Shown one piece after another: positions 13,433-44,056 of a DNA stretch of 51,062 nt. Position numbers and translations under genes: made by a program. Below the pieces are notes generated by a model. It had not been told where the DNA came from and ran no database searches. It was given only the letters and a program-made list of their open reading frames with translations. Position 1 is the stretch's first letter; the number at the start of each line of letters is the position of its first letter. The stretch covers positions 1 through 51,062 of the forward strand of contig CAINFC010000288.1 of the NCBI GenBank assembly GCA_903847975.1. The letters run 5' to 3'. Source of the stretch: an uncultured Acidobacteriota bacterium (GTDB taxonomy: Bacteria > Acidobacteriota > UBA6911 > CAINFC01).

Positions 13433-14667
13433 CCGATCGCCAAGAGCCTTCCGTTGCCTACCTGGTAAGCCGGTATCCGCACATCTCCCATACCTTTATT
13501 CTTCGTGAGGTGGCAGTCCTGCGGCAGGCCGGCCTGCGCATCGAGACGGCTTCGGTCAACGATCCGGATCGCCCCCCGGAACGGCTGACCGCCGAGGAGC
13601 GCGCCGAAGCGGCCGCTACGTTTTACATCAAGCGGGCCGGGGTCTCCGGGGCATGCAGCGCTCACCTGCGCGCCTTCCTGGCGCACCCGCTGCGGTACCT
13701 GCAGGGCCTCGCTTTTTCCCTGTCCCTGGGCGGAGCCGATCTCCGGCAGGTGGCGTTCGGCATCCTGTACTTTGTGGAAGCGGTCATGGTCGGCGTCTGG
13801 ATGCAGAGCCGCGGAATACGGCACCTGCATGTGCATTTCGCCACGCCGGCTTCCACGGTCGGGCTCATCGCCAGGCGGGCCTTTCCGATTTCCCTGTCGA
13901 TTACCGTGCACGGACCGGATGAGTTTTATGACGTGCAGGCTTACCGGCTGCGGGAAAAGATCGCCGGCTCCGACTTTATCTGCTGCATCGGGATGTACGC
14001 CCGCAGCCAGCTGATGAAGCTGTCCGCTCCGGAGCAATGGCCGAAATTCGAAGTCTGCCCCCTCGGGGTGGACCCGGATGCCTTTGTCCCCAGGCCGTTT
14101 CGCGAAAAGCCGGCCCCTTTCAACGTGCTCTGCGTGGGCCGGCTGGTGGAAGCCAAGGGACAGCATATCCTGATTGCCGCCGTGGACCGGCTGGTCCAAA
14201 GCGGCCGCGACGTCGAGCTCTGCCTGGTCGGCGACGGACCCGATCGGGCTTCCCTGGAAAAATCCGTCGCCCGACGCGGGTTGCAGGCCCGGGTGACCTT
14301 CACCGGGTCCGTCAACCAGGACGAGATTCGCGAATACTACCGCCGGGCCGATGTGTTCGCCCTGGCCAGCTTCGCCGAAGGCATCCCGGTCGTACTAATG
14401 GAAGCCATGGCGATGGAAATCCCTTGCGTCACCACCTGTATTACCGGAATTCCGGAGCTGATCCGGGATGGAATCGACGGGTTTCTGGTCCTTCCTTCCG
14501 ATGAGAAGGGGCTGGCGGAAGCGATTGCCGGACTGCAGCAAAATCCCGGGCTCTGCCGCGAAATCGGGCAGGCCGGACGGCTTCGGGTGATCGAAAAATA
14601 CAATCTGGGGAAAAATACTCTTCTCATGGCGGAAGTCTTTCAGCGCCGGCTGGGGGGCTGTTCATGA
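13429..14667 (+). CDS. Group 4 glycosyltransferase (WcaL/EpsE-like)
   Basis: GT-B glycosyltransferase of 412 aa. The N-terminal motif SRYPHISHTFILREV is typical of WcaL/AmsK-type colanic-acid enzymes. The C-terminal domain has VGRLVEAKGQHILI, LVGDGPDR and the donor-binding E-x7-E motif in FAEGIPVVLMEAMA. It acts at the cytoplasmic face, adding a sugar to the lipid-linked repeat unit. It overlaps the polymerase by 4 bp and the next gene by 4 bp, so translation is coupled. The sugar cannot be predicted. Confidence 0.88.
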   Translation: MTDRQEPSVAYLVSRYPHISHTFILREVAVLRQAGLRIETASVNDPDRPPERLTAEERAEAAATFYIKRAGVSGACSAHLRAFLAHPLRYLQGLAFSLSLGGADLRQVAFGILYFVEAVMVGVWMQSRGIRHLHVHFATPASTVGLIARRAFPISLSITVHGPDEFYDVQAYRLREKIAGSDFICCIGMYARSQLMKLSAPEQWPKFEVCPLGVDPDAFVPRPFREKPAPFNVLCVGRLVEAKGQHILIAAVDRLVQSGRDVELCLVGDGPDRASLEKSVARRGLQARVTFTGSVNQDEIREYYRRADVFALASFAEGIPVVLMEAMAMEIPCVTTCITGIPELIRDGIDGFLVLPSDEKGLAEAIAGLQQNPGLCREIGQAGRLRVIEKYNLGKNTLLMAEVFQRRLGGCS

Positions 14668-16865
14668 GAATCTTCGGGGCCCTGCTGCTGATCGCCGTGC
14701 TGTCCTCCGGCCTTTATTTTTTTCCCTGGGCTGACCCGCAACAGGAATTCCGGAGCAGCCAGAGGCCGATGACCGTCCCGCTGACGGTCGATCCCGCTGC
14801 CGCGCAGAGCGACTTGCCGCGCATCGGCATGAACCTGGGCACCTGGACCTCCTGGGGAGCGGAGCAGTATGGCTCCAACATTGTAAAGAACCCCGGCTTT
14901 GAGGGCCTGATCGACCGGGCCATTGCCATCGTCAGGCAGGCCGATACTCTTTCCTTTTCCGACGACAACGAATACCTGGGCCGGGCGGACGGCTTCTGGG
15001 CCGGCGCGGAATACGATGTCCGAACCGGTCTTTCGGCCGGCCGGCGCGGAACGCTCTCCGATTCGCGCCAGAAGGACACGGACGGATACCCGCGATATAT
15101 CTCCTCCACGGTCCTTCCCCCGCTCCTTCCGGGAGATGTCGTCGCCCTGACCCGGTTTAAAAACGATGAGCTGCCCTCCAAATGGTGGTTTCCGCAGGAA
15201 AGCTCCTCCGTTGTGGGTGTATCCAGCGACGTTCCGGCCGGCAGTCCGGGTAAGCGAAGTGTTGTCCTGAAGCCGGCTCCCGGCCGTGAGGCGGTCCTGC
15301 ACACCTACTTTGACGCCATCGGCAGCCGGGCGGGCAAAATGCTCCCGCTGCAGGGGCCCTGGAGGCTCTCCTTTTTCAGCAGGCAGGGCCCGGGAGATTC
15401 GCGGCTCGAGGTCGAGCTTCGCCGGGAAGGGGCCCCGCCCATGCTGCAGCGCACCCTGGAGCCCTCCCGCTCCTGGGCCAGAACGAACCTGGAGTTTTCC
15501 GCCAGCGACGACGGACCGGACGGCACGCTGCAGCTTCATTTCCAGGCCACGGGCAGCGGAGAGGTGCTGCTCGACGATGTCGAGCTGACCGCCGCGGGCG
15601 CAGACTCCCCCTTCCGCAGGGAGTTGACGGAAGCGCTGGCCCGGCTCCAGCCCGGCTACCTCCGCGACTGGCAGGGGCAGCTGGGCGACACCCTGGAAAA
15701 CCGGCTGGCCTCTCCCCTGGCACGCGTCCCCTCGCGATACCGCCCCGGGGTCGAGGAAGCCAAGTACTTCTATTCGCTGCCCGAATTTCTCGATCTGTGC
15801 AGCCGGCTGCACGCGCGCCCCTGGATCGTCGTCCCGCCCACTTTTTCCGACGAGGAGAACCTGGCTTTTGGACGCTTCCTGGCGAATCAGGCCGACACCA
15901 GCCGGTTCGATGAAGTTCTGGTGGAATTCGGCAACGAAAACTGGAATTCCATTTTCCGCCCCGCGGGCATACCCAACCCCGAAGCCCATGCCCAGGCCTT
16001 CCAGCGGGCTTTCTACCGGATCCGCCAGGGAGCGGGAAGCTCGGTCCGGCTGATTTCGGTGGCCAACGGCCAGTATGTGTACCCCTCCTATGCCCTCGAT
16101 GTCGCCGGGCACGCCTTGCCGGACATGCTGGCCGTGGCCCCCTATTTCCTGCACCGCCTGGAAGCGGGAACGGGCCGCGCGGAGCGCCTGGCGCAGCTCT
16201 TCGCCCGGGATTCCTTCGGCCAGATGCTGGCCACGGGCATGGAGAAGATGGGGCGTTCGCTGGGTGTCTATGAGGTCAACCTGCACACCACGGAAGGAAG
16301 TGCATCCGCAGCGGAGCGCGACGCCACCATCGCCGGCATGGCCTCCGGTTCCGCCCTGGCCAGGCGCATCCTCGAATCGCTGGCCTGGGGGATGAAGCGC
16401 CAGTGCGTCTACGTGCTGGCGGGCTTCGACACCTACCTGGCCCAGAACAAGCAATATACCCGGCTTTGGGGCGTGGTACGCGATCTGGGTTCTACCCGCC
16501 GGTTCCGGCCCACCGGCCTGGCGGTGGGCCTGCTGAACCAGGTAATCGGCGGAGACCGGCACCGGATACCGATCCCGGAATACCTGCCGGAGGTTACCGC
16601 CGCCGCCTTCCACCAGAACAGAAAGTGGAGCGCCGCGCTCGTCTCCTCGGCCTCCCAGCCGATTACCGTAACCCTCGAATTTCCTCCATCGGCGGATTCG
16701 CTCTATCCCAACCGGATCCTCCGGCTCGAAGCTTCCGACCCGGAGGCCAGCAACGAGGAATCGGAGGAGGTCCGTATCGCCGCAGAGCCGGTCCTCCCGG
16801 CCGGCAACAAACTGAAATTGAGGCTTCCCGCTTACGGCCTCGCCGTGCTAACCTCTGATCCGTAG
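14664..16865 (+). CDS. Exported glycosidase-like protein (clan GH-A-like) in the exopolysaccharide operon
   Basis: Protein of 733 aa with an N-terminal signal/anchor (FGALLLIAVLSSGLYFF). A carbohydrate-binding-type beta domain is likely near residues 180-310 (LHFQATGSGEVLLDDVELTA). It is followed by a probable TIM-barrel: Glu425 in FGNENWN matches the acid/base Asn-Glu signature of clan GH-A, and Glu537 in LGVYEVNLHT is well placed as nucleophile. A beta-sandwich-like C-terminal tail follows. It recalls arabinofuranosidase or GH39/GH51-like enzymes, but no family can be fixed by eye. Sitting between glycosyltransferases with 4-bp overlap upstream, it may trim or release the polymer in the periplasm (inference). 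Confidence 0.6.
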   Translation: MRIFGALLLIAVLSSGLYFFPWADPQQEFRSSQRPMTVPLTVDPAAAQSDLPRIGMNLGTWTSWGAEQYGSNIVKNPGFEGLIDRAIAIVRQADTLSFSDDNEYLGRADGFWAGAEYDVRTGLSAGRRGTLSDSRQKDTDGYPRYISSTVLPPLLPGDVVALTRFKNDELPSKWWFPQESSSVVGVSSDVPAGSPGKRSVVLKPAPGREAVLHTYFDAIGSRAGKMLPLQGPWRLSFFSRQGPGDSRLEVELRREGAPPMLQRTLEPSRSWARTNLEFSASDDGPDGTLQLHFQATGSGEVLLDDVELTAAGADSPFRRELTEALARLQPGYLRDWQGQLGDTLENRLASPLARVPSRYRPGVEEAKYFYSLPEFLDLCSRLHARPWIVVPPTFSDEENLAFGRFLANQADTSRFDEVLVEFGNENWNSIFRPAGIPNPEAHAQAFQRAFYRIRQGAGSSVRLISVANGQYVYPSYALDVAGHALPDMLAVAPYFLHRLEAGTGRAERLAQLFARDSFGQMLATGMEKMGRSLGVYEVNLHTTEGSASAAERDATIAGMASGSALARRILESLAWGMKRQCVYVLAGFDTYLAQNKQYTRLWGVVRDLGSTRRFRPTGLAVGLLNQVIGGDRHRIPIPEYLPEVTAAAFHQNRKWSAALVSSASQPITVTLEFPPSADSLYPNRILRLEASDPEASNEESEEVRIAAEPVLPAGNKLKLRLPAYGLAVLTSDP

Positions 16866-27156: not shown

Positions 27157-28454
27157 GCCCTTTTCCTGCCCATTTCCGCTACCTCCTGGTTACCCACATC
27201 CCCTTCGCGCGCAACCGGGACGGCACCGTTGCGCTGGACGGATTGTGGGCCAGGGATCTGAACGGGCTGGCCGCCTCCATCGGACCGATCCGCGTGGCGG
27301 CACCCCAACTGGACGGCCAGGAGGGTCTTAAGACCTGGGGGCCGACCGCGGCGGTTCTGGGAGCCGACTCCCGGATCTGTTTTCAGGGATTTCCCCCGAT
27401 GCGCTCCTCGCGGGATTTCTGGTCCCGCAGAAAAATCTCTGCCATCCTGCGCCGGGAGGTAGCCGAGGCGGACCTGATCCATACTTCCAATTTTTTCCCG
27501 CCCTACGTGTGCCTGAGCTACGCCCACGACTGCGCGGTCCGGATGGGGAAGAAGACGCTGCTGGTGATTGCCGAGGATTTCTTCGACATGCTGGAGTGGG
27601 AGTGGGTCCGCATGGCCGAAAGCCCGTTCCGGTACCGGTGGCGCCGGCAGAATCTGGCGGCGCTGGACCGGCGCGTCCGGCGGAGCGCGGCCACGGCTTC
27701 CCTCACTTTTCTGCATACTCCGGCGGCGGTCACCCGCTACCGGCTTTCAGCGCGCAACGGCATCGCCATACGTCAGCCGGGCTACGAAACCGAGGACATC
27801 ATCGACCCGGCCCGGTTCAGCGAAAAATGCGCGCAGCTGCAAAGCGGGGCCGCCCTTGTCCTGGTTACCGCCGGCCGGCACAAAGCCCTCAAGGGCCTGG
27901 AATTTCTTGTCGGCGCGGTTTCCCTTCTGGCCCGCTGGAACCGGCGCGTGGAACTCCGGGTTTACGGGCAGGGGGAAGAAACCGGGTCGCTCCGGGCACT
28001 GGCACATTCCGCCGGAGTCGCCGACCGGGTTTCCTTTCCCGGCTCGCTCCCCCCCGGGGGTGAGATTTATCGGGCCATTGCCGCCGGCCATGTTTTTGTG
28101 ATGCCCCACCGCACCACCGATTTCGGCAGGGCTTTCTTCGACGCCATGGCCGGGGGCTGCCCGGTGGTTGCTTTCCGGACGCCGGCCAGCATCGATACGG
28201 TGCGGGACGGAACGGACGGGCTCCTGGCGCCGCTGGACGATGTGGAAGGGCTGGCAGCCTGCATCCAGCAGCTGGATGCCGACCGGGCTCTTACCGTACG
28301 CCTGGCGACCGCCGCCCGGGATCGCGCTCTCCGAAATACGCGCAGCGACTGGTTTCAATGGAGAGCCGAGTGGATCCGGGCCCTTTTTGCCGACCCGCAA
28401 ACGGCCGACGGACTCCAGCCAGCCGATGGAACCGGGGACAAAAGTGCACGTTGA
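27153..28454 (+). CDS. Group 4 glycosyltransferase with altered E-x7-E motif
   Basis: GT-B-type protein of 433 aa. The N-terminal half contains LVTHIPFARNRDG and FFPPYVCLSYAHD. The C-terminal half shows VTAGRHKALKGLEFLVGAV and VYGQGEETGSLR. In the donor site the usual E-x7-E reads TDFGRAFFD: the first Glu is Thr and the second is Asp, so donor binding may differ. AMAGGCPVVAF follows as normal. It overlaps the flippase gene by up to 29 bp. Probably active, but less certain than its neighbours. Confidence 0.78.
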   Translation: MSPFPAHFRYLLVTHIPFARNRDGTVALDGLWARDLNGLAASIGPIRVAAPQLDGQEGLKTWGPTAAVLGADSRICFQGFPPMRSSRDFWSRRKISAILRREVAEADLIHTSNFFPPYVCLSYAHDCAVRMGKKTLLVIAEDFFDMLEWEWVRMAESPFRYRWRRQNLAALDRRVRRSAATASLTFLHTPAAVTRYRLSARNGIAIRQPGYETEDIIDPARFSEKCAQLQSGAALVLVTAGRHKALKGLEFLVGAVSLLARWNRRVELRVYGQGEETGSLRALAHSAGVADRVSFPGSLPPGGEIYRAIAAGHVFVMPHRTTDFGRAFFDAMAGGCPVVAFRTPASIDTVRDGTDGLLAPLDDVEGLAACIQQLDADRALTVRLATAARDRALRNTRSDWFQWRAEWIRALFADPQTADGLQPADGTGDKSAR

Positions 28455-30066
28455 ACCGGTCTCCCCGCCGGGAGAAGACCATTCCAAAACCGTCCGCGAC
28501 ACCCTGTCGACGAATGTGGTCATCGACATGAGCGCCCGCATCGGCTATCTCCTGACGCGGTTCTTCATACCTCCTTTCGTGCTGGCCCATGTGGGCCTGG
28601 ACGCCTACGGACTCTGGTCCACCGCCTTTATCCTGGTATCCTACCTCGGCGTGTCGACCCTCGGCATTTCAAATGTCTACATCAAGTTTGTGGCCGAGTA
28701 CTCGGCACGGAAGGATTACCAGCGGGCCAACGCTCTGCTTTCCACCGGCCTGATGGTAACCACTCCTCTGTGCTCCGCGCTTTTCGTCCTGCTCTATTTC
28801 GGCTGGCCTCGCCTGGTCGAATACCTCAACGTCCCGGCCCCTCTCCAGACCGACGCCCAGGAAGTAGTGCTGCTGGTGGTAGCCATCTTCCTTTCTTCCA
28901 TCGCCTTCTCCGGATTCCGGGATGCCCTGACCGGCGTCCAGAAGCTGGCCGTGGTGCAGACCAGCTGGATGATCGCCTACCTGGTGGAAACGGCTCTGAT
29001 TTTTATACTGATCGGCGCCGGAAGGGGAATCCGCGGCCTGGCGGAAGCCTTTCTGATCCGAATCCTGCTGGAAATCCTCCTTGCTGCTTTTTTTGCCTTT
29101 CGTCGTCTCCCCTGGCTGAAAATTTCTATTTCGCTTTTCGACCGGCCTTCCCTCCATCTGCTCTTCTCCTTTGGGGGAGTTGTACAGCTGCTCAGCCTGG
29201 TTTCCATCATCCTGAACTCCATCGAGCGCGCCCTGGCCGCCCCCCTGGTGGGGCTGGAATCCGCCGGGCTCCTGGATATCGGCAAGAAGCTGCCGAACAT
29301 GGCCTCCTCGGTTCCCCACGCATTTGCCGCTTCCCTGGTGCCGGCCGCCTCCTACCTGCAGGGGGGACTGGATGGAAAGCCCGAGGAGCAGGAAAAGGCA
29401 CGCAAGCTGTACGTCAAGGGAGCCCGATATATGAACCTGGCTACGGCCTTTGTCTGCGGGCTGCTGGCTACCGCTCCCCTGCCCCTTCTGGATGTCTGGC
29501 TGGGAAAGCGCTATCCGGGAACCGCTTTTCTGATGGTGGTCTTCTGCCTTTCCACCCAGGCCCACCTGATGACCGGCCCGGGCACCTCCATTCTGAAAGG
29601 CCTCGGCCGGCCGAAAGAGGAAATGCATTACATTATTCCCAATCTGGTGGCGGTGGTGATTTTCCTGGCTGTCAGCTACCTTCTTGTCGGCTGGACAACC
29701 TTCGGAATTGCCGTGTCCGTCAGCGCGGCCAAGATCGTTTCCGTCGTCTATTTTATTCGGCGATCCAACCGCCTGCTGGGCGTATCCGACGGCTCCTACC
29801 TGCGGAGCGTGGCGCTTCCCGGAATAGCGCCCTACCTGATCGGACTGGTTCTTTCCCTGCCTGTGCATCTGGCCCAGGCACATGTCAGCCGCTGGACCCT
29901 GGCTCTTTTCCTCCTGGCGCTGGGGCTGGCCTACTCCCTGGCCGTCCTGCTGGTCGTGGACCGCTGGGTGTTCGAATCGGGGGAACGGCTGTGGTTCCAT
30001 GCCGTGATTCAGGACCGCGTGGGGCGGTGGCGGCCGTCCTTGCGGCTTAACGCCAAAGAAGGATAA
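28426..30066 (+). CDS. Wzx-type polysaccharide flippase
   Basis: Polytopic membrane protein of about 546 aa with 12 to 14 hydrophobic helices, in the MOP superfamily (oligosaccharidyl-lipid flippase). The first helices read SARIGYLLTRFFIPPFVLAHVG and DAYGLWSTAFILVSYLGVSTLG, a common opening for this family. Start choice is open between ATG 28426 and the in-frame GTG 28444; both overlap the preceding gene. It would move the undecaprenyl-linked repeat unit to the periplasm for the polymerase at 12059. Slightly longer than typical Wzx (about 400-500 aa). Confidence 0.85.
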   Translation: MEPGTKVHVEPVSPPGEDHSKTVRDTLSTNVVIDMSARIGYLLTRFFIPPFVLAHVGLDAYGLWSTAFILVSYLGVSTLGISNVYIKFVAEYSARKDYQRANALLSTGLMVTTPLCSALFVLLYFGWPRLVEYLNVPAPLQTDAQEVVLLVVAIFLSSIAFSGFRDALTGVQKLAVVQTSWMIAYLVETALIFILIGAGRGIRGLAEAFLIRILLEILLAAFFAFRRLPWLKISISLFDRPSLHLLFSFGGVVQLLSLVSIILNSIERALAAPLVGLESAGLLDIGKKLPNMASSVPHAFAASLVPAASYLQGGLDGKPEEQEKARKLYVKGARYMNLATAFVCGLLATAPLPLLDVWLGKRYPGTAFLMVVFCLSTQAHLMTGPGTSILKGLGRPKEEMHYIIPNLVAVVIFLAVSYLLVGWTTFGIAVSVSAAKIVSVVYFIRRSNRLLGVSDGSYLRSVALPGIAPYLIGLVLSLPVHLAQAHVSRWTLALFLLALGLAYSLAVLLVVDRWVFESGERLWFHAVIQDRVGRWRPSLRLNAKEG

Positions 30067-30098: not shown

Positions 30099-30494
30099 AT
30101 GATACGCAAAACGAAAATTCTGGTGGTGGATGATGAGAGGCATATCGCCCGGTTCCTGGAATTCGTTCTGAAAAGGGAAGGCTACGATGTGGCCGTGGCC
30201 CACGACGGGGACCACGCCCTGGCTACGGTTAGGTCCTTCCGTCCGGACGCCATGGTTCTGGACGTGGTCCTGCCGAAGCAGTCGGGATTGGAGGTCCTGA
30301 AATCCGTCCGCTCCGACCCCGTCCACGCCCATATCAAGGTTCTGGTGCTGACCGCCAAATCCTTCGAGGAAGGGCTGGAAAAAATGCAGCAGGCCGGAGC
30401 CAATTCGCTTTGCAGCAAACCGATTGCTCCCTCGGTACTTCTGAAAACATTAAGCGAGCTGGGAGCAGCTCCGAAAACGGAAGACACGGACTGA
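30099..30494 (+). CDS. Single-domain response regulator
   Basis: Stand-alone receiver of 131 aa. The acidic pair is Asp11-Asp12 in LVVDDE, the phosphoacceptor is Asp55 in VLDVVLPKQSG, the switch Thr is in VLTAKS, and the lysine is in CSKPIAP. There is no output domain. GGGGG lies 5 bp before the ATG. It directly precedes a PP2C-HATPase protein and a STAS protein, so it may carry a phosphoryl signal to that pair. It could also be the target of the two HPt-ended hybrid kinases farther downstream (inference). Confidence 0.9.
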   Translation: MIRKTKILVVDDERHIARFLEFVLKREGYDVAVAHDGDHALATVRSFRPDAMVLDVVLPKQSGLEVLKSVRSDPVHAHIKVLVLTAKSFEEGLEKMQQAGANSLCSKPIAPSVLLKTLSELGAAPKTEDTD

Positions 30495-30505
30495 TACCCG
30501 ACCCG

Positions 30506-32638
30506 ATGGACGAGCGGAACGACCAATCCCCTAGCCCGGAGCGCCCGACCGCCGCCGCGGACAGCCGGTGGCCGAAGCTGTTGGGCCGGCTCGAGCAGAC
30601 GGTGCGCCCTCTGGCCCGCCGGCTTGGCCTGGCTCTCGGGATTTCCCTGGATGGAAACCTGGAGTGGCTCGAAGCCCACGAGTCCTGCCGGTGCCGCAGC
30701 CTGACGGGCCTGCCGCCCGCGGATTCAGCCGGCGACTCGCTGGCCCTGGTACCGATTCCAATGGCCCCGGAAGAAGGCCTCGTGGTGCTGTGCCCGGGTG
30801 CCGCGGGAGGCCCGGGATTGTCGGCCCTGGTGGAAATCGTCGGTATGGCCTGGGCGGAAATCGAGCGGGATGCCGAGCAGGAATCGCTGCTCACGGAAAT
30901 CGGCGCCTGCTGGGAATGCCTTGACACCCTTTTCCGGATCCATGCGGATCTGCGGGAGATTCACCAGGCACAGGTACTGCTCAACCGGATTCTGGAAAGA
31001 GCTGTTACCTTTCATGCCGGCCTCAAGGCCGTGCTGTGGATCGAATCCGAAGGGCGCCTGAAAGCGGTTGCCTGCCGGAATACGGTCCCTTGGCCCGATC
31101 GGGATCCGGGAGAAGGGCTGATCGGCAAAACGATTCGCAACCGGATGACCACCGTATTGAACGCCCGAACTCCGGGCCCCGATTCCCAGCAGGCGGAACC
31201 GGAGCTGTCCGACGCCGTCAGCCTGGTGATCGCACCGGCCGGAACCCGGGAAGCCCTGATCGGCGCCCTGGCCCTATGGCACGACACCGAGCCGGTACCG
31301 TTCGATTCCACCCGGATCCGCCTGATCGAAAGCGTAGCCATGCAGGCGGCCGCTATCGTCGAAAGCGATCGATTTCACCAGGCTTCCCTGGAAGGAGAAC
31401 GGCTTAAAAACGAGCTGGAAATCGGTGCCAAAATCCAGCAAATGCTGCTTTTCAAGGAACCCCCGCAGGATATCCCCGGCTTGCAGATCGGCGTTATCAT
31501 GATACCCTCACGGAAGGTCGACGGCGATTTTTGCGAGTACATCCGCCACTCCAACCATTGCCTGGATATCGCCGTCGGCGACGTGATGGGCAAAGGGATT
31601 CCCGCCGCCCTGGTGGGCGCGGCCACCAAGAGCCAGATCCTGCGCTCGCTATGCAGCCTGCTGGCGGTTGCCCGGAGCGGAACGACCCCCTCCCCGGCCC
31701 AGATCGTCAATGCCGTTCACCAGGAACTGTCGGAACGGCTGATCGATCTGGATTGCTTCGTAACCCTCTGCTACGCCCGGATCGACCTGGACGCCCGACA
31801 GCTTGACCTGGTGGATTGCGGTCACACCAAAACGATTCATGTGGATGCGGGCAGCGGCAGCGTCCGGATGCTCAGCGGGGACAACCTGCCGCTTGGGGTC
31901 TCCATGCGCGAGGTCTACACCCAGAACACGGTCCCATTCAGCGACGGAGACATGATCGTGTTTTATTCCGATGGGATTACCGAAGCCCGCGATCCCGAGG
32001 GTGCTTTCTTTGGGGAAACCGGCCTCGCCCGGAGCCTTCAGGACTGCCCTTGCGGACCGCCCGACGAGTTCATCCGGACTCTGCGGCAGGACCTGGCCGC
32101 CTTTACGCGGACCGAAGCCTTCGCCGACGACCTAACCTGTGTGGCCGTGCGAATCGGGGGACAGGAGCCCGCGCAAACGTCACTGGTGACGCAGCTGGAG
32201 TTGTCCAGCCGTTTCCAGCAGCTCGGGCGCCTGAGGGAGTGGCTGCGCGAAGTGTATGCCCGGGACGCACATGAAGATGAAGACGGCTTTCATCTTCTGG
32301 ATCTGGCCCTGACAGAGGTTTTTACCAATATCGTCCGCCACGCCTGCCATGAAGAGCCGGGGTACCTTATCCGAATCCAGGCGGAAAGCCGCCCCCATCG
32401 GGCGGTGATTACCGTGACTTACCCGGGAGAATTTTTTGATCCCGGGACAGCGCCGCCCCCGGATTTCGACGGAAACCGGGAGGGCGGATTCGGGCTCTAT
32501 ATCATTTCTCAGGCGGTGGACGAGGTGAGCTATTCCCAGACTGCCCAGGGGGACAATCAGGTCCGACTGGTCAAGAGATTTCAATCGATTCAACAAGGAG
32601 AGTGCAATAATGGTGCAACTGGTAGAAAAGGCAGGTGA
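30506..32638 (+). CDS. GAF / PP2C (RsbU-SpoIIE-type) phosphatase with C-terminal RsbW-like HATPase
   Basis: Cytoplasmic regulator of 710 aa. A GAF-like sensor is likely near residues 140-300 (ILERAVTFHAGLKAVLWIES). The PP2C phosphatase domain, near 305-545, has the metal-binding VDGDF (about 338), GDVMGKGIPAAL, FYSDGITEA and FADDLTC motifs, all intact. The C-terminal RsbW-like domain keeps the N-box LTEVFTNIVRHA and the G2-type loop GGFGLYII. In the G1 box, however, Tyr639 (TYPGEFFDP) replaces the Asp that normally contacts adenine, so kinase activity is doubtful. It ends overlapping the STAS gene by 29 bp. Likely dephosphorylates the STAS protein. The start at 30506 avoids overlap with the receiver gene. 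Confidence 0.88.
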   Translation: MDERNDQSPSPERPTAAADSRWPKLLGRLEQTVRPLARRLGLALGISLDGNLEWLEAHESCRCRSLTGLPPADSAGDSLALVPIPMAPEEGLVVLCPGAAGGPGLSALVEIVGMAWAEIERDAEQESLLTEIGACWECLDTLFRIHADLREIHQAQVLLNRILERAVTFHAGLKAVLWIESEGRLKAVACRNTVPWPDRDPGEGLIGKTIRNRMTTVLNARTPGPDSQQAEPELSDAVSLVIAPAGTREALIGALALWHDTEPVPFDSTRIRLIESVAMQAAAIVESDRFHQASLEGERLKNELEIGAKIQQMLLFKEPPQDIPGLQIGVIMIPSRKVDGDFCEYIRHSNHCLDIAVGDVMGKGIPAALVGAATKSQILRSLCSLLAVARSGTTPSPAQIVNAVHQELSERLIDLDCFVTLCYARIDLDARQLDLVDCGHTKTIHVDAGSGSVRMLSGDNLPLGVSMREVYTQNTVPFSDGDMIVFYSDGITEARDPEGAFFGETGLARSLQDCPCGPPDEFIRTLRQDLAAFTRTEAFADDLTCVAVRIGGQEPAQTSLVTQLELSSRFQQLGRLREWLREVYARDAHEDEDGFHLLDLALTEVFTNIVRHACHEEPGYLIRIQAESRPHRAVITVTYPGEFFDPGTAPPPDFDGNREGGFGLYIISQAVDEVSYSQTAQGDNQVRLVKRFQSIQQGECNNGATGRKGR

Positions 32639-32948
32639 CATTGCCATGGTGGTGTTGTCGGGAGAAAACCTGGACGCCAGCAACGAAAAGGACTTCAAGC
32701 GGGAAATCCGCCCGATCCTGGAAGCCAATAAAAAAGTGGTGCTGGACATGGGGAAACTGCTGTTCGTGGACAGCTCCGGCCTGGGTGCGATTCTGTCCTG
32801 CCTGCGTCAGCTGAACAGCGCCGGCGGAGACCTGAAGCTGTGCGAAATGACCAAGCCGGTCCGGACCCTTTTCGAACTGGTGCGCATGCACCGGATTTTC
32901 GATATTTACAATTCCCGGGACGAAGCTCTGCGCGCCTTTCAGCGCTGA
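32610..32948 (+). CDS. STAS-domain anti-sigma factor antagonist (SpoIIAA/RsbV-like)
   Basis: Protein of 112 aa, a single STAS domain. The phosphorylation loop is LFVDSSGLGAIL, with Ser55/Ser56 as candidate phosphosites. CAAGGAG-type Shine-Dalgarno bases precede the ATG, which lies inside the end of the phosphatase gene. In partner-switching systems the unphosphorylated STAS protein binds its kinase or another effector. No sigma factor gene is present here, and polysaccharide genes follow directly, so its target may be the polymer machinery itself, as proposed for SypA in Vibrio (analogy). Confidence 0.92.
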   Translation: MVQLVEKAGDIAMVVLSGENLDASNEKDFKREIRPILEANKKVVLDMGKLLFVDSSGLGAILSCLRQLNSAGGDLKLCEMTKPVRTLFELVRMHRIFDIYNSRDEALRAFQR

Positions 32949-32982: not shown

Positions 32983-34140
32983 ATGAAAGCGATTATCTTG
33001 GCAGCCGGCCGGGGAACCCGGATTCAGCCGATTACCTATTCGATCCCCAAACCGATGATCCCGATCATCAGGAAACCGGTGATGGAGTTCCTGATCGAAC
33101 TTCTGCACCGCCATGGCATACGGCAGATCATGGTCAACACCAGCTACCTGGCCCCGACCATCGAGGATTACTTTCGCGACGGATCCCGGTACGGGGTTCA
33201 AATCGCCTATTCTTTCGAAGGATACCTGGAGGACGGCCATATCGTGGACGCTCCCGTGGGCTCCGGCGGCGCACTGAAGAAGATCCAGGATCACTCCGGC
33301 TTTTTTGACGAAACCTTTCTGGTGCTTTGTGGCGATGCCCTGATCGACCTGGACCTGACCGAACTGCTCTCCCGCCACCGGGAAAGCAAGGCAGTCGCGA
33401 CCATTGCCCTGGCGGAGGTCCCGCGGGACCAGGTCTCCAGTTACGGTGTGGTGGTGAGGTCGTTCGACGGCCGGATCCGGGAGTTCCAGGAAAAGCCGTC
33501 CGTGGCCGAAGCGAAAAGCAACACGGTCAACACCGGCATCTATGTCTTTGAACCCGAGGTTCTCGAGCGCATTCCCTCGGGCACCAACTATGACATCGGC
33601 TCGCAGCTGTTTCCCGATCTGGTTCGCCGGGATGCGGCTTTCTTCGGGGTGACGCTCCCCTTTCAGTGGCTGGACATCGGCAAGATCACCGATTATTACA
33701 AAGTGATGCAGATGGCTCTGATCGGCAATATCCACGGGTTCCGGGTTCCCGGCACGGAAGTCCGGCCTGGAATCCGCTTCGGACTGAACGTGCGGGCGGA
33801 TCTGAGCCGGTGCCACCTTACCCCCCCCATCTTCGTCGGAGGCAGCTCGACCCTGGAGCCCGGCTGTACCATTGTCGGACCGACCATGATCGGCAGCGGC
33901 TGCCGGATCGAGGCCGATTCCCACATCGAAAAAAGCCTGGTCTTCGATTACACCCGCATCGGCCGGGAAGCCTTTGTGAGAAATGCCATGATATCCGGAA
34001 AGTACTGCATCGACTCCTCCGGAGGGGTCGTCGATCTGGAGCGAGCCAATGTGGGCTGGATCGCCGGCGATGCCCGCAGCCCCCAGAAATCCCTGAACGA
34101 AGAGCAGCAGGAGCTGCTGCGGATGCTGAAGGACCTATGA
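32983..34140 (+). CDS. NDP-sugar pyrophosphorylase with left-handed beta-helix tail
   Basis: Nucleotidyltransferase of 385 aa that would make the activated sugar for the repeat unit. The signature LAAGRGTR (residues 6-13), PKPMIP, GSGGALK and the metal-binding LCGDALIDLD (Asp118) are intact. NTGIYVFEPEVLE and WLDIGKITDYY complete the sugar site. Hexapeptide-like repeats follow from about residue 280 (PIFVGGSSTLEPGCTIVGP). It resembles mannose-1-phosphate guanylyltransferases or glucose-1-phosphate nucleotidyltransferases; nucleotide and sugar cannot be assigned by eye. It overlaps the phosphoglycosyltransferase gene by 4 bp. Confidence 0.87.
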   Translation: MKAIILAAGRGTRIQPITYSIPKPMIPIIRKPVMEFLIELLHRHGIRQIMVNTSYLAPTIEDYFRDGSRYGVQIAYSFEGYLEDGHIVDAPVGSGGALKKIQDHSGFFDETFLVLCGDALIDLDLTELLSRHRESKAVATIALAEVPRDQVSSYGVVVRSFDGRIREFQEKPSVAEAKSNTVNTGIYVFEPEVLERIPSGTNYDIGSQLFPDLVRRDAAFFGVTLPFQWLDIGKITDYYKVMQMALIGNIHGFRVPGTEVRPGIRFGLNVRADLSRCHLTPPIFVGGSSTLEPGCTIVGPTMIGSGCRIEADSHIEKSLVFDYTRIGREAFVRNAMISGKYCIDSSGGVVDLERANVGWIAGDARSPQKSLNEEQQELLRMLKDL

Positions 34141-34928
34141 CGCCCGTCTCCGTCCGCGAGCCCGAGGGGAGCCGGATTTCCCGCACTTCCGCCACGCCCT
34201 CCGACCGGAATTACCGGGACCGGTTCGAGCTCACCGAAGAACTGTACCGCCGATACGGCGGTTCCGGCTGGAGCCGCCGCTGGCGACTGGCGCGAAAGAA
34301 GTACTTCTGGCTGATGGTCGTCGGCGGCGCCCGCCTTCTGAAGCGGGCCCTGGACGTGGCTGTAGCCGGATCGATGATGGTCGCCCTGATGCCCCTGTTC
34401 CTGGTTCTGGCTCTCTGCATCAAGCTGACCGACGGGGGCCCGGTACTTTTCTGGCAGACCCGGGTAGGCCGCTGGGGAAGGGAGTTTCCTTTTCCTAAAT
34501 TCCGGTCCATGGTGGTCAACGCCGAAAAACTCAAGGATGCCATTCTGGCCCAGAGCCATCACAAGGACAGCATCACCTTTAAAATGAAGCGGGATCCACG
34601 GGTCACCTGGATCGGCCGCTTCCTGCGTAAGCTGAGCCTGGATGAAATGCCCCAGCTCTACTGCGTTCTGAAAGGAGATATGTCCCTGGTCGGACCCCGT
34701 CCGCCCCTGCCGAGAGAAGTGGCCCTGTATACGCTCAAAGACCGCCGCCGGCTGGATGTCATCCCGGGCTTGACCTGCATATGGCAGGTGAGCGGCCGGG
34801 GCGACATACCCTTTGCCCAGCAGGTGCAGCTCGACATCCAGTACATCGAGAGCCAAAGTCTCTGGCTGGATCTGAAGCTGCTGCTGCAGACTATTCCCGC
34901 TGTTATACTGGGCCGAGGCGCCTATTAA
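34137..34928 (+). CDS. Initiating phosphoglycosyltransferase (bacterial sugar transferase family, catalytic dyad intact)
   Basis: Monotopic phosphoglycosyltransferase of 263 aa that would transfer a sugar-1-phosphate onto undecaprenyl phosphate. After a soluble N-terminal stretch, the reentrant membrane helix is ALDVAVAGSMMVALMPLFLV. The family motif FPKFRSMV follows, then the catalytic Asp169-Glu170 in RKLSLDEMPQL, and KGDMSLVGPRPP. The C-terminus with GLTCIWQVSGRGD and IESQSLWLDLKLL is standard. All features of an active enzyme are present, so this is the committing step of repeat-unit synthesis. It is the only one of three PGT-like proteins here with the dyad. Eight bp separate it from the next gene. 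Confidence 0.9.
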   Translation: MTPVSVREPEGSRISRTSATPSDRNYRDRFELTEELYRRYGGSGWSRRWRLARKKYFWLMVVGGARLLKRALDVAVAGSMMVALMPLFLVLALCIKLTDGGPVLFWQTRVGRWGREFPFPKFRSMVVNAEKLKDAILAQSHHKDSITFKMKRDPRVTWIGRFLRKLSLDEMPQLYCVLKGDMSLVGPRPPLPREVALYTLKDRRRLDVIPGLTCIWQVSGRGDIPFAQQVQLDIQYIESQSLWLDLKLLLQTIPAVILGRGAY

Positions 34929-34936
34929 GACTTCGT

Positions 34937-36361
34937 ATGCCCCCCGACTACTCCGATCCGTCCGACCGGGAAAAAGACCGCCAGGAGCTGTTCCGGCGGT
35001 TCTCCAGAGGAGGCCTGGCGCGCTCGCGTCTGCGACGCCTTCTTCAGGGAACCGTGTGGCCGCTGCTGATCGGCTCGGCCTCGGCCGCCAAGCGCCTGCT
35101 GGATTTCACCGCCGCGGCCCTGCTGCTGTTGCTATTGGCCCCCATGATGCTGCGCACCATTCTGCTCTGGCAGGCCACGGGACGACATGTTTTCCAGCGC
35201 ACCCCCCGGCTGGGCCGCTGGTGCAGGGAGTTTGACCAGCTTTCCTTCGCTCCGCGGTCGAACCGGCTGTTCCGGATCATGAAATCGCTCGGTCTGATTT
35301 CCCTGCCGGTGCTGTTCAACATTCTGAAAGGCGACATGTCCTTCATCGGACCGCGCCCGGTCAGCCCGGGAGAGCTGAGCCCGCGCGACCGTATGGCACG
35401 CCGGCGGTACGATGTCAAACCCGGACTGATCGGCCTTTGGTGGCTTCGGCAGAGAGGGAATATCGCCTACGACTCCGAGGCGCAGGTCGACCGGCAATAT
35501 GTCGACAGCCAGAGTGTCTGGGGGGACCTGGGCATCGTGCTGCGGGCTATCCCCGCCGTCTTTTACGGCAAGGGAAGCACGGACGCTCCGGACAGCCTGA
35601 CCATCCTGGGGATGCCGATCCGTAACCTGACCATGTCCGAGGCGGTGCAAGCCATGGCCGACTTCCTGAATGGCACCCAGCCACGTCAGGTCTGCTTCGT
35701 CAACGCCGACTGCGCCAACCTGGCTTACCGCGATCCCGAATACCTTTCTGTGCTGCGCACCGCCGACCTGTGCCTGGCGGACGGAATCGGCATCAAGCTG
35801 GCCGGAAAGCTTCTCGGGCGCGAGATACGGCAGAACGTCAACGGGACCGACCTGTTTCCGCGACTCTGCGAGGCGCTGGCGGAAAGCCCGCACAGCCTTT
35901 ATCTCCTGGGCGCCCGCCCCGGTATTGCCGAAGCGGTGCGGGACTGGATATCCCAGAACTATCCCGGCGCCAGGGTAGCGGGCTGCCGGCATGGCTACTT
36001 CCCCCCGGAGGAGGAACCGGCCGTCCTGCGGGAAATCGCTGCCTCCGGGGCCTCGCTGCTGCTGGTATCCTTCGGAGCGCCCCGCCAGGACAAGTGGATC
36101 CGCCGTCACCTTCCGGAAACCGGGGTCAAAGTGGCCATGGGGGTCGGCGGGCTGATGGATTTTTACTCCGGCCGGATTCCGCGGGCTCCGCAGTGGATGC
36201 GCGATATCGGCTTCGAGTGGATTTTTCGCTTCTACCAGGAGCCCGGACGCATGTGGAGGCGCTACCTGATCGGCAATGCCGTTTTCATGTACCGGGTGCT
36301 GGTCGAAAAATATTCCCGCCGGGACCGGAGATCCCCAAAGGCATCTAATACGGAGAGGTAA
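34937..36361 (+). CDS. Fusion: PGT-like domain lacking the catalytic dyad + WecG/TagA/CpsF glycosyltransferase
   Basis: Protein of 474 aa. The N-terminal part (about 45-215) aligns with the sugar transferase family: AKRLLDFTAAALLLLLLAP helix, LKGDMSFIGPRPVSPGE, and PGLIGLWWLRQRGN. The FRTM-like motif is replaced by LSFAP, and Ile121-Ser122 stand where the Asp-Glu dyad belongs. The C-terminal part (about 220-465) is a GT26 domain: NADCANLAYRDPEYLSVL, the catalytic-base-type Asp282 in LADGIG, NGTDLFPRL, SFGAPRQDKWI and VGGLMDFYSG. GT26 enzymes add the second sugar to the lipid-linked first sugar. The dead N-terminal domain could dock the lipid or the active upstream PGT (inference). Confidence 0.85.
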   Translation: MPPDYSDPSDREKDRQELFRRFSRGGLARSRLRRLLQGTVWPLLIGSASAAKRLLDFTAAALLLLLLAPMMLRTILLWQATGRHVFQRTPRLGRWCREFDQLSFAPRSNRLFRIMKSLGLISLPVLFNILKGDMSFIGPRPVSPGELSPRDRMARRRYDVKPGLIGLWWLRQRGNIAYDSEAQVDRQYVDSQSVWGDLGIVLRAIPAVFYGKGSTDAPDSLTILGMPIRNLTMSEAVQAMADFLNGTQPRQVCFVNADCANLAYRDPEYLSVLRTADLCLADGIGIKLAGKLLGREIRQNVNGTDLFPRLCEALAESPHSLYLLGARPGIAEAVRDWISQNYPGARVAGCRHGYFPPEEEPAVLREIAASGASLLLVSFGAPRQDKWIRRHLPETGVKVAMGVGGLMDFYSGRIPRAPQWMRDIGFEWIFRFYQEPGRMWRRYLIGNAVFMYRVLVEKYSRRDRRSPKASNTER

Positions 36362-36365
36362 GTCG

Positions 36366-37874
36366 ATGAATTGTATCGTAATCGCTGCCGCACACTGTCC
36401 CGCTCTGTCTCCGCTGGAGGAGCGGAATCCGGCTCTTCTGCTTCCGCTGGTGGACCGGCCTTTCCTCCAGCACGTCGTGGAGTTCCTGGTCGACCAGGGC
36501 ATTACCGAATTCGATTTTATCCTCAGCCACATGCCGGAGAAAATAGAGGAGTTCCTGGGAGACGGCGCCCGCTGGGGAAGCCGGTTCCGTTTCCATCTGG
36601 CCCGCGACCCGCTGCACCCCTACCGGAATCTTCCGCTGATCGCCACTCCGGACCGGGGGCCGGAGTTTTTTCTGGCCCATGCCGATCGCCTGCCGCTCCT
36701 TGACCCGGGTCCTATCCCGGACACCGGCGGGCCGGCCCTGTATTACCACCGGAGCGGAGACCGTCTCGCCTGGAGCGGGTGGGGGCGGCTGCAGCCCGCC
36801 GCCCTGGACGGTATCGGTGAAATGGACGAGAACCGCCTGGAAGAGCACTTGAAGGAGCAGCCCGGCACCCGGCTCGTAGAGGTGCCGGAAATGCTCCGGG
36901 TTCAGGCTTTTGACAGCCTCCTGGAATCCAACCGCGCCCTGCTGGCCAAAAAGATGCCCGGCCTGTCGCCTTCCGGAACGGAGACCGATGAAAGCATCTG
37001 GATTTCGCGGAACGTCAGCCTCCATCCGTCTGCCGGTCTGATCCCCCCGGTTTTCATCGGGCAGAACTGCCGGATTGGAAAAGGCGTGCGGCTGGGGCCG
37101 GGGGCCATTGTCGGTCATGACTGCGTTCTCGACACCCGCTGTACAGTGGCCGACTCGGTGATTTTTCCGGGCAGCTACGTGGGGGAGGCTCTCGAGCTGG
37201 ATCACGTGCTGGTGGATAAAAACCGGCTGGTCAATGTCAAGGTGGGCGTCGCCGTCTCCATTACCGACGATTTCATCCTGAGCGGGATTTCCGGGATCTC
37301 TTTCGGTAAAAAGCTGCACGGCTGGTTCTCCCGGTTCGCCGCCGCGTTCCTGCTGGTCCTGTGCTCCCCGGTTCTCCTGCTTACGGCTCTTTGTCTGGCG
37401 GCATTCCGCTCCGGCCCTGTGCTGCGCCGGAGCGGCGTCGTCCGCCTGCCGGCTCCCGCGGATCCGTTTCACTGGAAAACATTCTCCCTCTGGAGCTTTG
37501 AAAAGGATGCCGCCGGCACGCGCGGTCTGCGCCACCTGGTTCTGACTGCCTTGCCCCAGCTGATTCATGTGGCCCGCGGCCACTGCCGTTTCGTGGGAGT
37601 TGCCCCGCGGACCCGCGAGCAGGTGCAGGCCCTCCCCCGCGACTGGCAAGCGCTTTACCTGCAGGCCAAGCCGGGAGTCATCACCGAGGCCCTGGTTCAG
37701 TATGGCCCGAACCCTTCCGCGGACGATCTTTACTCGGCCGAGGTGTTTTATTCCGTCCGCCACGGTTTGGGCCACGACCTCCGGCTGCTTCTCCGATACC
37801 TGGGTCAGGTTCTGGGACTGTCCCCCCAGGCCCCGGCAGAGAGGGAGGATCCTTCCTCCTCCCAAAACCGCTAG
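36366..37874 (+). CDS. Fusion pseudoenzyme: degenerate nucleotidyltransferase + beta-helix + degenerate PGT-like domain
   Basis: Protein of 502 aa. The N-terminus aligns with the pyrophosphorylase at 32983, but LAAGRGTR has become IAAAHCPA, PKPMIP reads NPALLLP, the GSGGALK loop is missing and CGDA reads AHAD. Hexapeptide-type repeats follow near 215-310 (PPVFIGQNCRIGKGVRLGPG). From about 320, a membrane helix (FAAAFLLVLCSPVLLLTALCL) and the pattern TALPQLIHVARGHCRFVGVAPRT match a sugar transferase domain in which Thr394-Ala395 replace Asp-Glu and KFRTM reads KTFSLW. A good Shine-Dalgarno GGAGAGG precedes ATG 36366. Both enzyme halves look catalytically dead, yet the frame is intact, which argues for a structural role. 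Confidence 0.75.
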   Translation: MNCIVIAAAHCPALSPLEERNPALLLPLVDRPFLQHVVEFLVDQGITEFDFILSHMPEKIEEFLGDGARWGSRFRFHLARDPLHPYRNLPLIATPDRGPEFFLAHADRLPLLDPGPIPDTGGPALYYHRSGDRLAWSGWGRLQPAALDGIGEMDENRLEEHLKEQPGTRLVEVPEMLRVQAFDSLLESNRALLAKKMPGLSPSGTETDESIWISRNVSLHPSAGLIPPVFIGQNCRIGKGVRLGPGAIVGHDCVLDTRCTVADSVIFPGSYVGEALELDHVLVDKNRLVNVKVGVAVSITDDFILSGISGISFGKKLHGWFSRFAAAFLLVLCSPVLLLTALCLAAFRSGPVLRRSGVVRLPAPADPFHWKTFSLWSFEKDAAGTRGLRHLVLTALPQLIHVARGHCRFVGVAPRTREQVQALPRDWQALYLQAKPGVITEALVQYGPNPSADDLYSAEVFYSVRHGLGHDLRLLLRYLGQVLGLSPQAPAEREDPSSSQNR

Positions 37875-42010: not shown

Positions 42011-44056
42011 ATGAACCAGGACCGACCCGACTCCCGCGACTACCTGCAGTGCCTGCACCGCTTCCCCACCTACGTAGCCAACGCCTGGCACTCGCTGGCT
42101 CCGGGGCGCGGGCATTTCGGCGACCCTTCCCACCTCGAAGGGGGGATACGATCCATGGGCAACGTGGTTTTTGTGTCGGCCCTGCTGGCCGCGGATCCGG
42201 GCTTCCAGCCGGAGACCGGCACGCCTGGCCGGGACTGGCTTCTGGAAAAAGCCCGCGCCGGCCTGGCCTACCTGACGCATGGCCACGTCACCGGACCAGG
42301 CACCTGCGGGGATGGCCGCAAGTGGGGCGCCGTTTGGCAGTCCGCCTGGTGGACCACGAGAATGGCCCTGGGAGCCCGGCTGATCTGGCCGGAGCTTGCG
42401 GAAGCGGAGCGGGAAGCGGTGGCGCGCGTCGTCTTTCACGAAGCCGACCTGCAGCTGCCCCGCGTCGTTCCCACCGGCCTTGCCGAAGATACCAAGGCGG
42501 AAGAAAACGCCTGGGACGCCGAAATACTGGCAACCGCCTGCGCTCTTTTTCCGGACCACCCCCGCCGCCCGCTCTGGTGGGAAAAGCTCTCTGAATTCGC
42601 CTACAACACGTTTTCCATTCCGGCCGACCGCGGCGACGAGAGGTTGGCCGAAGGCCGGCCTCTGCGGGAAAGGGTCTACACCGTGAATCTCTACAACGAC
42701 TTTACGCTGGAGAATCACGGCGCGTACCATTTCTGCTATGTGGCCAGCCCGCTGCACTCTTTTGCCTGGGCCTGCCACGCCCTGGAATCAGCGGGCCTGA
42801 CGCCACCGGCCGCCCTGTTTCACCATGTCCCCGAGGTGTGGGCGCGCGCCAAGCCGACGTTCCTCCGCGACCGGTTTGCTTACGTGGGCGGACAGGATTG
42901 GGCGCGCTACACCTACGGCAACTATTTCATTGTACCGGCCCTGGTCTGGCTGCAACAGCGGCTGGAAGACCCCGATCTTCGGGCCATCGAATGGGCGCGC
43001 TTTCACTGCCTGTGCCAGGAGCAGGCCGAAAACCGGGATGGGTCTTTTTTCGGCAAGAGGTTCACCCAGCCGCATTATCACGGCCAGAGCGCCAAGTACG
43101 AAACCGACTGTTATGCCAATTTGGGGCTGGCCTACCGGCTGCACCTGCGCCGGGAAGGCGGCGCGGCGGCCCCCGCCACCACCCAGGCCCGGCCGGCCGA
43201 GCGCCCCGACAGCCTTCCGCTGCGCGGCCGTCTGGTCAGTCCGGAATGCGGTATCGCCTTCGTCCGAACCCCGTCTCTTTTTGCATCCTTCAGCTGGAAG
43301 ACCATGACCGAACCGATGGCCATCGGCCTGTTTGTTCCGGTGCAGCGCGAAGAGCTCGCCGAATGGCAGCCCGGAAATCTGTTCGGGCGGGTGCGGCTGA
43401 AAGGGGAGTCCCCTTCGGCGGTCTGGGTGCGGCGCATGCGCGAGGAAGCGGATGGATTCCGGATCAGCGGAACCGTCGTGTACCGGGGCTGGCGCGGGCA
43501 GATTCTTATGACCCAGGAGCTGGAATACGCGGTCGATGCCGGGCGCGGGCAAGCCCAGGTACGTTCGCGCTTCGAAGCGGTCACCCCGGTGCAGGCCACC
43601 CGCGTGGAAGGACTGCGCCTGGCGGTGGCCAACGACCGCTGGAACGGGTTCGAAATCAAACTGCACCATGCCGGCGGGACGCTGCCCCTGCGCTTCGATC
43701 CCGAGGACCGGCCCTTCTGGCTGCACCGCCGGGACCTCCCCAGCCGGGCGTTGCGCCGGCTGCTGCGAAATACCATGCGGGACGGGCCTCGCCGGAAAAT
43801 CTCCGGGCGCTGGATCAACATCGACGATGCCTTCGGGATTATTGCCGAGGGCCCGAACCCTTCTCCTTTTGTTTTATACCGCCCGGCCGGAAGAAATCTC
43901 CCCGATCGAAGCCTGCACTTCGAGCTGCTGTTTTGCCCCCTGCGGCTGGAAAGGCGGAGCTATGCCCCGGGCGAGGAGATCCTGAACACCCGGTTTTCCC
44001 TGCTTCTGGGAGACGCCGCACAGACGCAGGCTTTTGCGGAACAGAACCGCGGCTAA
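42011..44056 (+). CDS. Uncharacterised protein, probable alpha/alpha-toroid (polysaccharide-lyase-like)
   Basis: Protein of 681 aa without signal peptide or membrane helix. The N-terminal half is rich in Trp/His/Tyr and helical (LTHGHVTGPGTCGDGRKWG, WQSAWWTTRMALGARL, and YNDFTLENHGAYHFCYVA). This suggests an (alpha/alpha)-toroid as in heparinase/alginate-lyase-type proteins. The C-terminal half looks beta-rich (GTVVYRGWRGQILMTQELEY; RRKISGRWINIDDAFGII), like the sandwich domain of such enzymes. I cannot name the family with confidence. It starts a three-gene operon with the H-NOX gene 14 bp downstream and the H-NOX kinase after that. A cytoplasmic enzyme on sugar polymer fragments is one guess; function unknown. 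Confidence 0.55.
   Translation: MNQDRPDSRDYLQCLHRFPTYVANAWHSLAPGRGHFGDPSHLEGGIRSMGNVVFVSALLAADPGFQPETGTPGRDWLLEKARAGLAYLTHGHVTGPGTCGDGRKWGAVWQSAWWTTRMALGARLIWPELAEAEREAVARVVFHEADLQLPRVVPTGLAEDTKAEENAWDAEILATACALFPDHPRRPLWWEKLSEFAYNTFSIPADRGDERLAEGRPLRERVYTVNLYNDFTLENHGAYHFCYVASPLHSFAWACHALESAGLTPPAALFHHVPEVWARAKPTFLRDRFAYVGGQDWARYTYGNYFIVPALVWLQQRLEDPDLRAIEWARFHCLCQEQAENRDGSFFGKRFTQPHYHGQSAKYETDCYANLGLAYRLHLRREGGAAAPATTQARPAERPDSLPLRGRLVSPECGIAFVRTPSLFASFSWKTMTEPMAIGLFVPVQREELAEWQPGNLFGRVRLKGESPSAVWVRRMREEADGFRISGTVVYRGWRGQILMTQELEYAVDAGRGQAQVRSRFEAVTPVQATRVEGLRLAVANDRWNGFEIKLHHAGGTLPLRFDPEDRPFWLHRRDLPSRALRRLLRNTMRDGPRRKISGRWINIDDAFGIIAEGPNPSPFVLYRPAGRNLPDRSLHFELLFCPLRLERRSYAPGEEILNTRFSLLLGDAAQTQAFAEQNRG

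Follow-up and report, generated by a model that had tools for sequence, protein, structure and literature searches.

Monotopic phosphoglycosyltransferases (PGTs) open Wzx/Wzy-type and many other glycan pathways, and their coupling to the next enzyme and their regulation are an open question. The active site of PglC contains Asp93-Glu94, Lys59 and Arg88; Arg145, together with Arg88, draws in undecaprenyl phosphate, and Asp168 stabilises the re-entrant helix (PMC12802240, PMC10519829). Bifunctional PGTs (Bi-PGTs) are already known (PMC10942596), and in Myxococcus xanthus the regulator EpsW binds the PGT EpsZ (PMC12802240). For TagA, activation requires membrane association, and the important residues include Thr37, Asn39, Asp65, Arg83, Gln167 and Arg221 (PMC6493773). 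In GMPPA/GMPPB a pseudoenzyme subunit regulates its active relative (PMC11228364), and SypE and SypA form a partner switch in which the target of SypA is unknown (PMC8256260). Here, we describe three consecutive genes of a 51,062-nucleotide contig (CAINFC010000288.1, hereafter the window) from the 8.1-Mb draft genome of an uncultured Acidobacteriota bacterium. The first encodes an active-type PGT (PGT1), and the other two (genes 2 and 3) encode PGT domains that have lost the Asp-Glu catalytic dyad (pseudo-PGTs). The presence of intact dead copies in at least six phyla suggests that dead PGTs hold together or control the first polysaccharide steps.

The three frames are open, closely spaced and all on the + strand: PGT1 (34137-34928, 263 aa), gene 2 (34937-36361, starting with the ATG at 34937, 474 aa) and gene 3 (36366-37874, starting with the ATG at 36366, 502 aa). 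They encode the following domains.

34137..34928, + strand: PGT1, small active-type monotopic phosphoglycosyltransferase of 263 aa (PF02397, 213.8 bits; WbaP/PglC alignment)
34937..35572, + strand: gene 2, N-terminal pseudo-PGT domain (PF02397, 101.2 bits; dyad replaced by I121-S122)
35594..36361, + strand: gene 2, C-terminal WecG/TagA/CpsF (GT26) domain (PF03808, 211.3 bits)
36366..36950, + strand: gene 3, N-terminal nucleotidyltransferase-like domain, predicted dead (sequence and model matches to tlr0611, MurU, RmlA and GMPPB)
36987..37268, + strand: gene 3, left-handed beta-helix (LbH, hexapeptide) domain (PF00132, PF25084, PF25087; low-confidence model)
37296..37871, + strand: gene 3, C-terminal pseudo-PGT domain (PF02397, 39.6 bits; dyad replaced by T394-A395)

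The initial annotation of this DNA had placed a sugar transferase domain in each of three consecutive genes at 34137-37874, and the Pfam Bac_transf family (PF02397) matches all three above its cut-off of 27 bits. The residues that it read as the dyad of PGT1 (D169-E170) and as its replacements in gene 2 (Ile121-Ser122) and gene 3 (Thr394-Ala395) are exactly so. They had been located by their common offset from a 'KGD(M)' motif, which reads RGHC in gene 3 of the source genome. Profile alignments to PglC (for gene 3) and to WbaP (for gene 2) and a joint alignment of all three families agree in placing these residues on the Asp-Glu columns; thus, the offset is not a counting slip. The frames are intact and the degenerate domains have different fusion partners, as had also been claimed, with WecG in gene 2 and a nucleotidyltransferase-LbH unit in gene 3.

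Across orthologues in the joint alignment, the Asp-Glu dyad was present in 30/30 PGT1 sequences, and in none of the 20 gene 2 or 46 gene 3 sequences. Loci retrieved for their similarity to gene 2, to gene 3 or to PF02397 contained 29 further intact PGT domains, a few of them PGT1 itself, and all 29 carried the dyad; the contrast between the families thus exceeds chance. Sampling of 396 genomes from across the phylum yielded 11 with a gene 3 of full or almost full length, and the gene also occurs in about 44 organism-labelled loci, from Acidobacteria (including Blastocatellia, Solibacteraceae and Edaphobacter), Desulfobacteraceae/Deltaproteobacteria, Planctomycetota, Verrucomicrobia, Lentisphaerae, Kiritimatiellae, Hydrogenedentes and Riflebacteria, making at least six phyla in total. 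Many of these loci are metagenome-assembled, and the organism labels are those of the records; cultured carriers include three Desulfoluna species (Desulfobacterota). Two loci (L162 and L163) are marginal members, and a Zixibacteria locus (L093) is apparently frameshifted.

In a maximum-likelihood tree, the PGT domains of gene 3 resolve into one clade (99/100), as do those of gene 2 (99/100) and of PGT1 (84/98). Since the gene 2 and gene 3 domains each form a single clade, the aligned sequences are most simply explained by one dyad loss in each family, which was then retained. Close pairs with usable dS give a dN/dS of about 0.12-0.28 for the pseudo-PGT part of gene 3, indicating purifying selection. 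What the initial annotation had named as grounds for refutation did not appear, there being no acid pair at the site in the profile alignments and no decay with stops among the orthologues.

PGT1 contains both the Bac_transf domain and the Asp-Glu dyad of a monotopic PGT enzyme. In addition to D169-E170, it retains R164 (equivalent to PglC R88), R188 (the GPR Arg), R221 (equivalent to R145) and D245 (equivalent to D168), and is, by sequence, the only one of the three proteins with a whole active site.

Gene 2 lacks the dyad, and its pseudo-PGT domain is recognisably related to PGT1 (hhalign E 2.3e-40). It retains the re-entrant-helix (RMH) proline (P69, 15/15) and the Asp168 equivalent (D197, 15/15), as well as the Arg145 equivalent (R173, 14/15) and the GPR Arg (R140, 14/15). 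Conservation has been lost at the positions that correspond to PglC K59 and R88, and the column at the Glu94 position holds Arg or His in 9/15 sequences. The two dyad columns vary (H 2.75 and 2.15 bits); the adjacent N128, G132, G138 and P139 are invariant, as are R157, W169, R171, N175, E181 and Y188, which lie away from the membrane helix. Gene 2 alone of the two pseudo-PGTs could thus keep a phosphate-binding site.

The C-terminal domain of gene 2 has the PF03808 fold, and its model superposes on TagA with a TM of 0.96. Equivalents of the catalytic base Asp65 (D282), Asn39 (N256), Gln167 (Q384) and the C-terminal Arg221 (R438) are kept in all aligned members, all of which also replace Thr37 by Phe (F254) and Arg83 by Asn (N300). 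We ruled out the idea of a triple pseudoenzyme, given the retained catalytic base of the WecG domain. We additionally identified six Rhodobacteraceae loci in which the same WecG subfamily (F37/N83) is fused to a dyad-bearing PGT in the opposite domain order, the fusion gene being followed by a GalU-like gene.

Rhodobacteraceae WecG-PGT fusions: L149:8526-9917, L119:9173-10561, L134:4602-5990, L143:8506-9921, L146:8530-9918, L152:8492-9913

These fusions are predicted to be two-step bifunctional initiators. Because they join both domains in the opposite order, this WecG subfamily and the initiating PGT are likely to act in consecutive steps. Their PGT domains bear the dyad and their WecG domains show the same Arg83 to Asn substitution, and we therefore rejected the idea that this substitution in gene 2 reflects a handover of phosphate binding to the pseudo-PGT.

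Gene 3 likewise lacks the dyad. Its pseudo-PGT domain matches PglC (profile E 3.9e-12) and PGT1 (hhalign E 2.5e-12), a relationship drawn from sequence profiles; the model of this domain has a pLDDT above 90 over most of its length. In gene 2 as in gene 3, the homology with PglC/WbaP extends over the domain and the re-entrant-helix proline is in place, which points to a PGT fold. Gene 3 retains that proline (P335, 35/36) and the Asp168 equivalent (D471, 32/35), and the column at the Glu94 position is hydrophobic (F/L/I/V/A) in 35/36 sequences. The basic residues of the active and lipid sites (equivalents of K59, R88, R145 and the GPR Arg) are not conserved. An acidic residue, E441, is found in the stretch that holds the undecaprenyl phosphate-binding Arg of active PGTs (Glu in 35/36, Asp in 1/36), and D426 and W427 are also conserved.

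The N-terminal domain of gene 3 has neither the GxGTR loop nor the PKP lysine of sugar nucleotidyltransferase enzymes, both being absent from all 36 sequences. Q35, H36, E39, R69, W70 and G71 are invariant in the same set, which hints at a retained ligand or contact site. With both the nucleotidyltransferase signature and the PGT dyad gone, gene 3 is, by these motifs, a double pseudoenzyme. In both pseudo-PGT families the helix proline and the structural Asp persist, whereas the dyad and the equivalents of K59 and R88 do not, indicating that the membrane seat has probably been retained and the catalytic site lost. Since the lipid-site arginines are lost from gene 3, a docking or regulatory role would fit it better than lipid holding.

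We compared the neighbourhoods of gene 3 across loci. PGT1 adjoins gene 3 in 38 of 44 loci, and four of the six exceptions are truncated by contig ends. In 26/44 loci a STAS gene is close to gene 3, and about 20 have a gene of the SpoIIE or RsbW type. Judged by gene content, PGT1 and gene 3 make up the minimal pair, to which gene 2 and the partner-switch are often added. In the window, the genes upstream of PGT1 are as follows.

30099..30494, + strand: single-domain response regulator, upstream of the SpoIIE gene (PF00072)
30410..32638 (start codon provisional), + strand: one protein with GAF, SpoIIE PP2C phosphatase and RsbW-like HATPase domains (PF07228, PF13581, PF13185)
32610..32948, + strand: STAS-domain protein with the phosphorylation-site motif VDSSGLG (PF01740, 70.6 bits)
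32983..34140, + strand: active-type sugar nucleotidyltransferase with LbH, overlapping PGT1 by 4 bases (PF00483, 178.1 bits)

The SpoIIE/RsbW protein contains the motifs GDVMGKG, DD.T, E...N...H and GGFGL, and the signature of a SpoIIE/STAS partner-switch is complete, with the PP2C metal Asp, the RsbW N-box and the STAS DSSG motif. In the translation of the upstream nucleotidyltransferase both GRGTR and PKP are seen. A CHASE hybrid histidine kinase gene lies downstream of the three genes, and the window also has genes for Wza-type export, for a polymerase or ligase of the Wzy type and for several glycosyltransferases. The region is an exopolysaccharide locus. Two results go beyond the initial annotation: gene 3 is, by its motifs, a double pseudoenzyme, and the module travels with a STAS/SpoIIE partner-switch.

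We consider it moderately probable that PGT1, gene 2 and gene 3 together make up a complex that initiates an exopolysaccharide pathway of the Wzx/Wzy type, in which one PGT is catalytic and two further subunits have the PGT fold without its activity. In such a complex, PGT1 would transfer sugar-phosphate onto undecaprenyl phosphate (step a). The gene 2 pseudo-PGT, which would have retained its fold and its seat in the membrane along with two arginines that steer phosphate, would dock beside PGT1 and hold or receive the lipid-PP-sugar, to which the fused WecG-type enzyme would add the second sugar (step b). Gene 3, taken as the usual partner of PGT1 because it occurs without gene 2, would be seated on the membrane against PGT1 by its pseudo-PGT, and its dead nucleotidyltransferase-LbH unit may act as in GMPPA/KONJAC, in nucleotide-sugar sensing or oligomerisation (step c). 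Finally, the SpoIIE/RsbW protein would set STAS phosphorylation and so turn the complex on or off (step d), with gene 3 gating PGT1, probably in response to nucleotide sugar and the STAS phosphorylation state. Of these, steps a and b stand on firmer ground, and steps c and d are hypothetical.

The membrane scaffold that the initial annotation had proposed thus stands in part. Constrained and differently fused pseudo-PGTs do lie beside an active PGT, and the scaffold and lipid-carrier roles are what we infer from this arrangement. For gene 2, a scaffold or lipid-carrier role gains indirect support, because the R145 equivalent and the GPR Arg are kept, a basic residue often occupies the Glu position, and Rhodobacteraceae join this WecG subfamily to an active-type PGT. 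Several points weigh against an initiating complex of this kind. Complex formation and regulation are themselves inferred. Gene 2 is present in about half of the loci and is therefore not essential to the module, and STAS/SpoIIE genes are absent from some flanks. The structure model of the gene 2 pseudo-PGT is poor (pLDDT about 40-80), and the structure matches listed for the gene 3 model are nucleotidyltransferase and eIF2B chains, with no PGT among those listed, and so are uninformative on its pseudo-PGT fold. Finally, E441 of gene 3 is a new conserved acid with no assigned role.

We weighed four other explanations. The pseudo-PGT domains might be plain membrane anchors for the WecG enzyme and for the gene 3 head, with no part in docking, lipid handling or control. 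Their best-kept part is that for membrane insertion (the proline and the structural Asp) and the part that has been lost is the active site, and TagA activity depends on membrane association (PMC6493773). However, the invariant gene 2 residues R157, W169, R171, N175, E181 and Y188 lie away from the membrane helix, gene 3 stays by PGT1 in most loci, and a generic anchor would be freely swappable, with no need for the PGT fold twice; we consider this explanation unlikely. Somewhat less doubtful, and overlapping with step c, is the possibility that gene 3 is mainly a GMPPA-like feedback sensor, which would bind the end-product nucleotide sugar and inhibit or activate PGT1 or a neighbouring pyrophosphorylase, with scaffolding secondary. 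The matches of the gene 3 model to GMPPA/GMPPB, eIF2B and VTC1-KJC2, the invariance of Q35, H36, R69, W70 and G71 in its dead domain, and its occurrence without gene 2 and rarely without PGT1 are consistent with such a sensor. Yet the fold likeness covers the whole nucleotidyltransferase family and not GMPPA specifically, ligand binding is itself a prediction, and the active pyrophosphorylase gene is inconstant as a neighbour.

A hidden activity of gene 2 and/or gene 3 through a rearranged site, for example with E441 of gene 3 as nucleophile, on another lipid or sugar phosphate would agree with the near-invariance of E441 and with the other conserved polar residues of gene 3 (D426, W427). We judge it very improbable, as the dyad is lost everywhere, its columns vary freely and the K59 and R88 equivalents are unconserved; the nucleotidyltransferase signature of gene 3 is also lost, and wholesale loss of catalysis is therefore favoured. 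We rejected recent decay, in which the domains would be relics of tandem duplication en route to loss, as having almost no chance of being correct. The gene 2 pseudo-PGT can still be recognised as a descendant of an enzyme like PGT1, but the frames are intact in at least six phyla, dN/dS is well below 1 and each loss has one origin.

Returning to the initiating complex, we put forward a broader version tentatively, as a possibility that we would not yet favour. Two separately evolved families of dead PGTs, a widespread and previously undescribed class, might assemble with a small active PGT into an obligate hetero-complex, in which one hands the lipid-linked sugar to a second glycosyltransferase and the other, the double pseudoenzyme, is the receiver for STAS/SpoIIE control of the first exopolysaccharide step. 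We found no description of a conserved dyad-less PGT family in the searchable literature, the 2021 superfamily survey (O'Toole et al.) being outside this scope, and no literature linking a sugar transferase with SpoIIE, a STAS domain and exopolysaccharide, subscription papers being mostly outside it. The conserved set of one live and two dead PGT folds offers a natural test of PGTs as scaffolded complexes, and the module is a candidate for the target of polysaccharide-controlling STAS proteins such as SypA.

We additionally noted individual features of the window and of other loci. In the window, a promoter scan gave matches no commoner than in shuffled sequence, a hybrid histidine kinase at 44631-47882 matches the heme-NO-binding-associated (HNOBA) domain, and large frames at 28168-30066, 14664-16865 and 42011-44056 have no Pfam match at E 1e-5; these sit within or beside the exopolysaccharide locus, and some are possibly not genes. 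In one locus without gene 2 (L072:9181-9957), a divergently encoded stand-alone WecG of another type (T37, R83) lies between PGT1 and gene 3. In a Kiritimatiellae metagenome-assembled genome, the PGT1-gene 3 pair is immediately followed by a gene (L106:7133-15283) for a protein of 2717 aa that has a C25 peptidase domain of the gingipain type, and in Desulfoluna butyratoxydans a formylglycine-generating-enzyme-like gene (L096:7363-8922) adjoins STAS and PGT1.

Compared with the monotopic PGTs (PglC, WbaP and EpsZ; PF02397), the three proteins share the predicted fold, the re-entrant-helix proline and the structural Asp, and PGT1 the full active site; in contrast, genes 2 and 3 are dyad-less in every orthologue, with the K59 and R88 equivalents unconserved. 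Gene 2 resembles the Bi-PGTs, including the Rhodobacteraceae WecG-PGT proteins, in the fusion of a PGT to a second pathway domain, and shares with the latter the same F37/N83 WecG subfamily. However, the PGT of the Rhodobacteraceae fusion is active-type and C-terminal, whereas gene 2 has a dead PGT at its N-terminus and an active-type one encoded separately beside it. With the WecG/TagA/CpsF (GT26) enzymes, gene 2 has in common the equivalents of Asp65, Asn39, Gln167 and Arg221, and differs from them in Thr37 to Phe, Arg83 to Asn and its N-terminal pseudo-PGT. Gene 3 combines a dead nucleotidyltransferase with an LbH, as in GMPPA-GMPPB and KONJAC-VTC1; unlike in those systems, a dead PGT is fused to this unit, and its retained neighbour is an active PGT instead of a pyrophosphorylase. 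As in SypE/SypA and SpoIIE/SpoIIAA, a PP2C, an RsbW-like kinase and a STAS protein occur together in a polysaccharide locus, although the switch here is linked to a PGT/pseudo-PGT set. Finally, the proposed post-translational control of an initiating PGT by a binding partner recalls EpsW-EpsZ; there, the part of the partner falls to a response regulator instead of a pseudo-PGT, and EpsZ is a large PGT. Regulatory pseudoenzyme subunits are of a known kind, and it has recently become known that a regulator can control an initiating PGT by binding to it.

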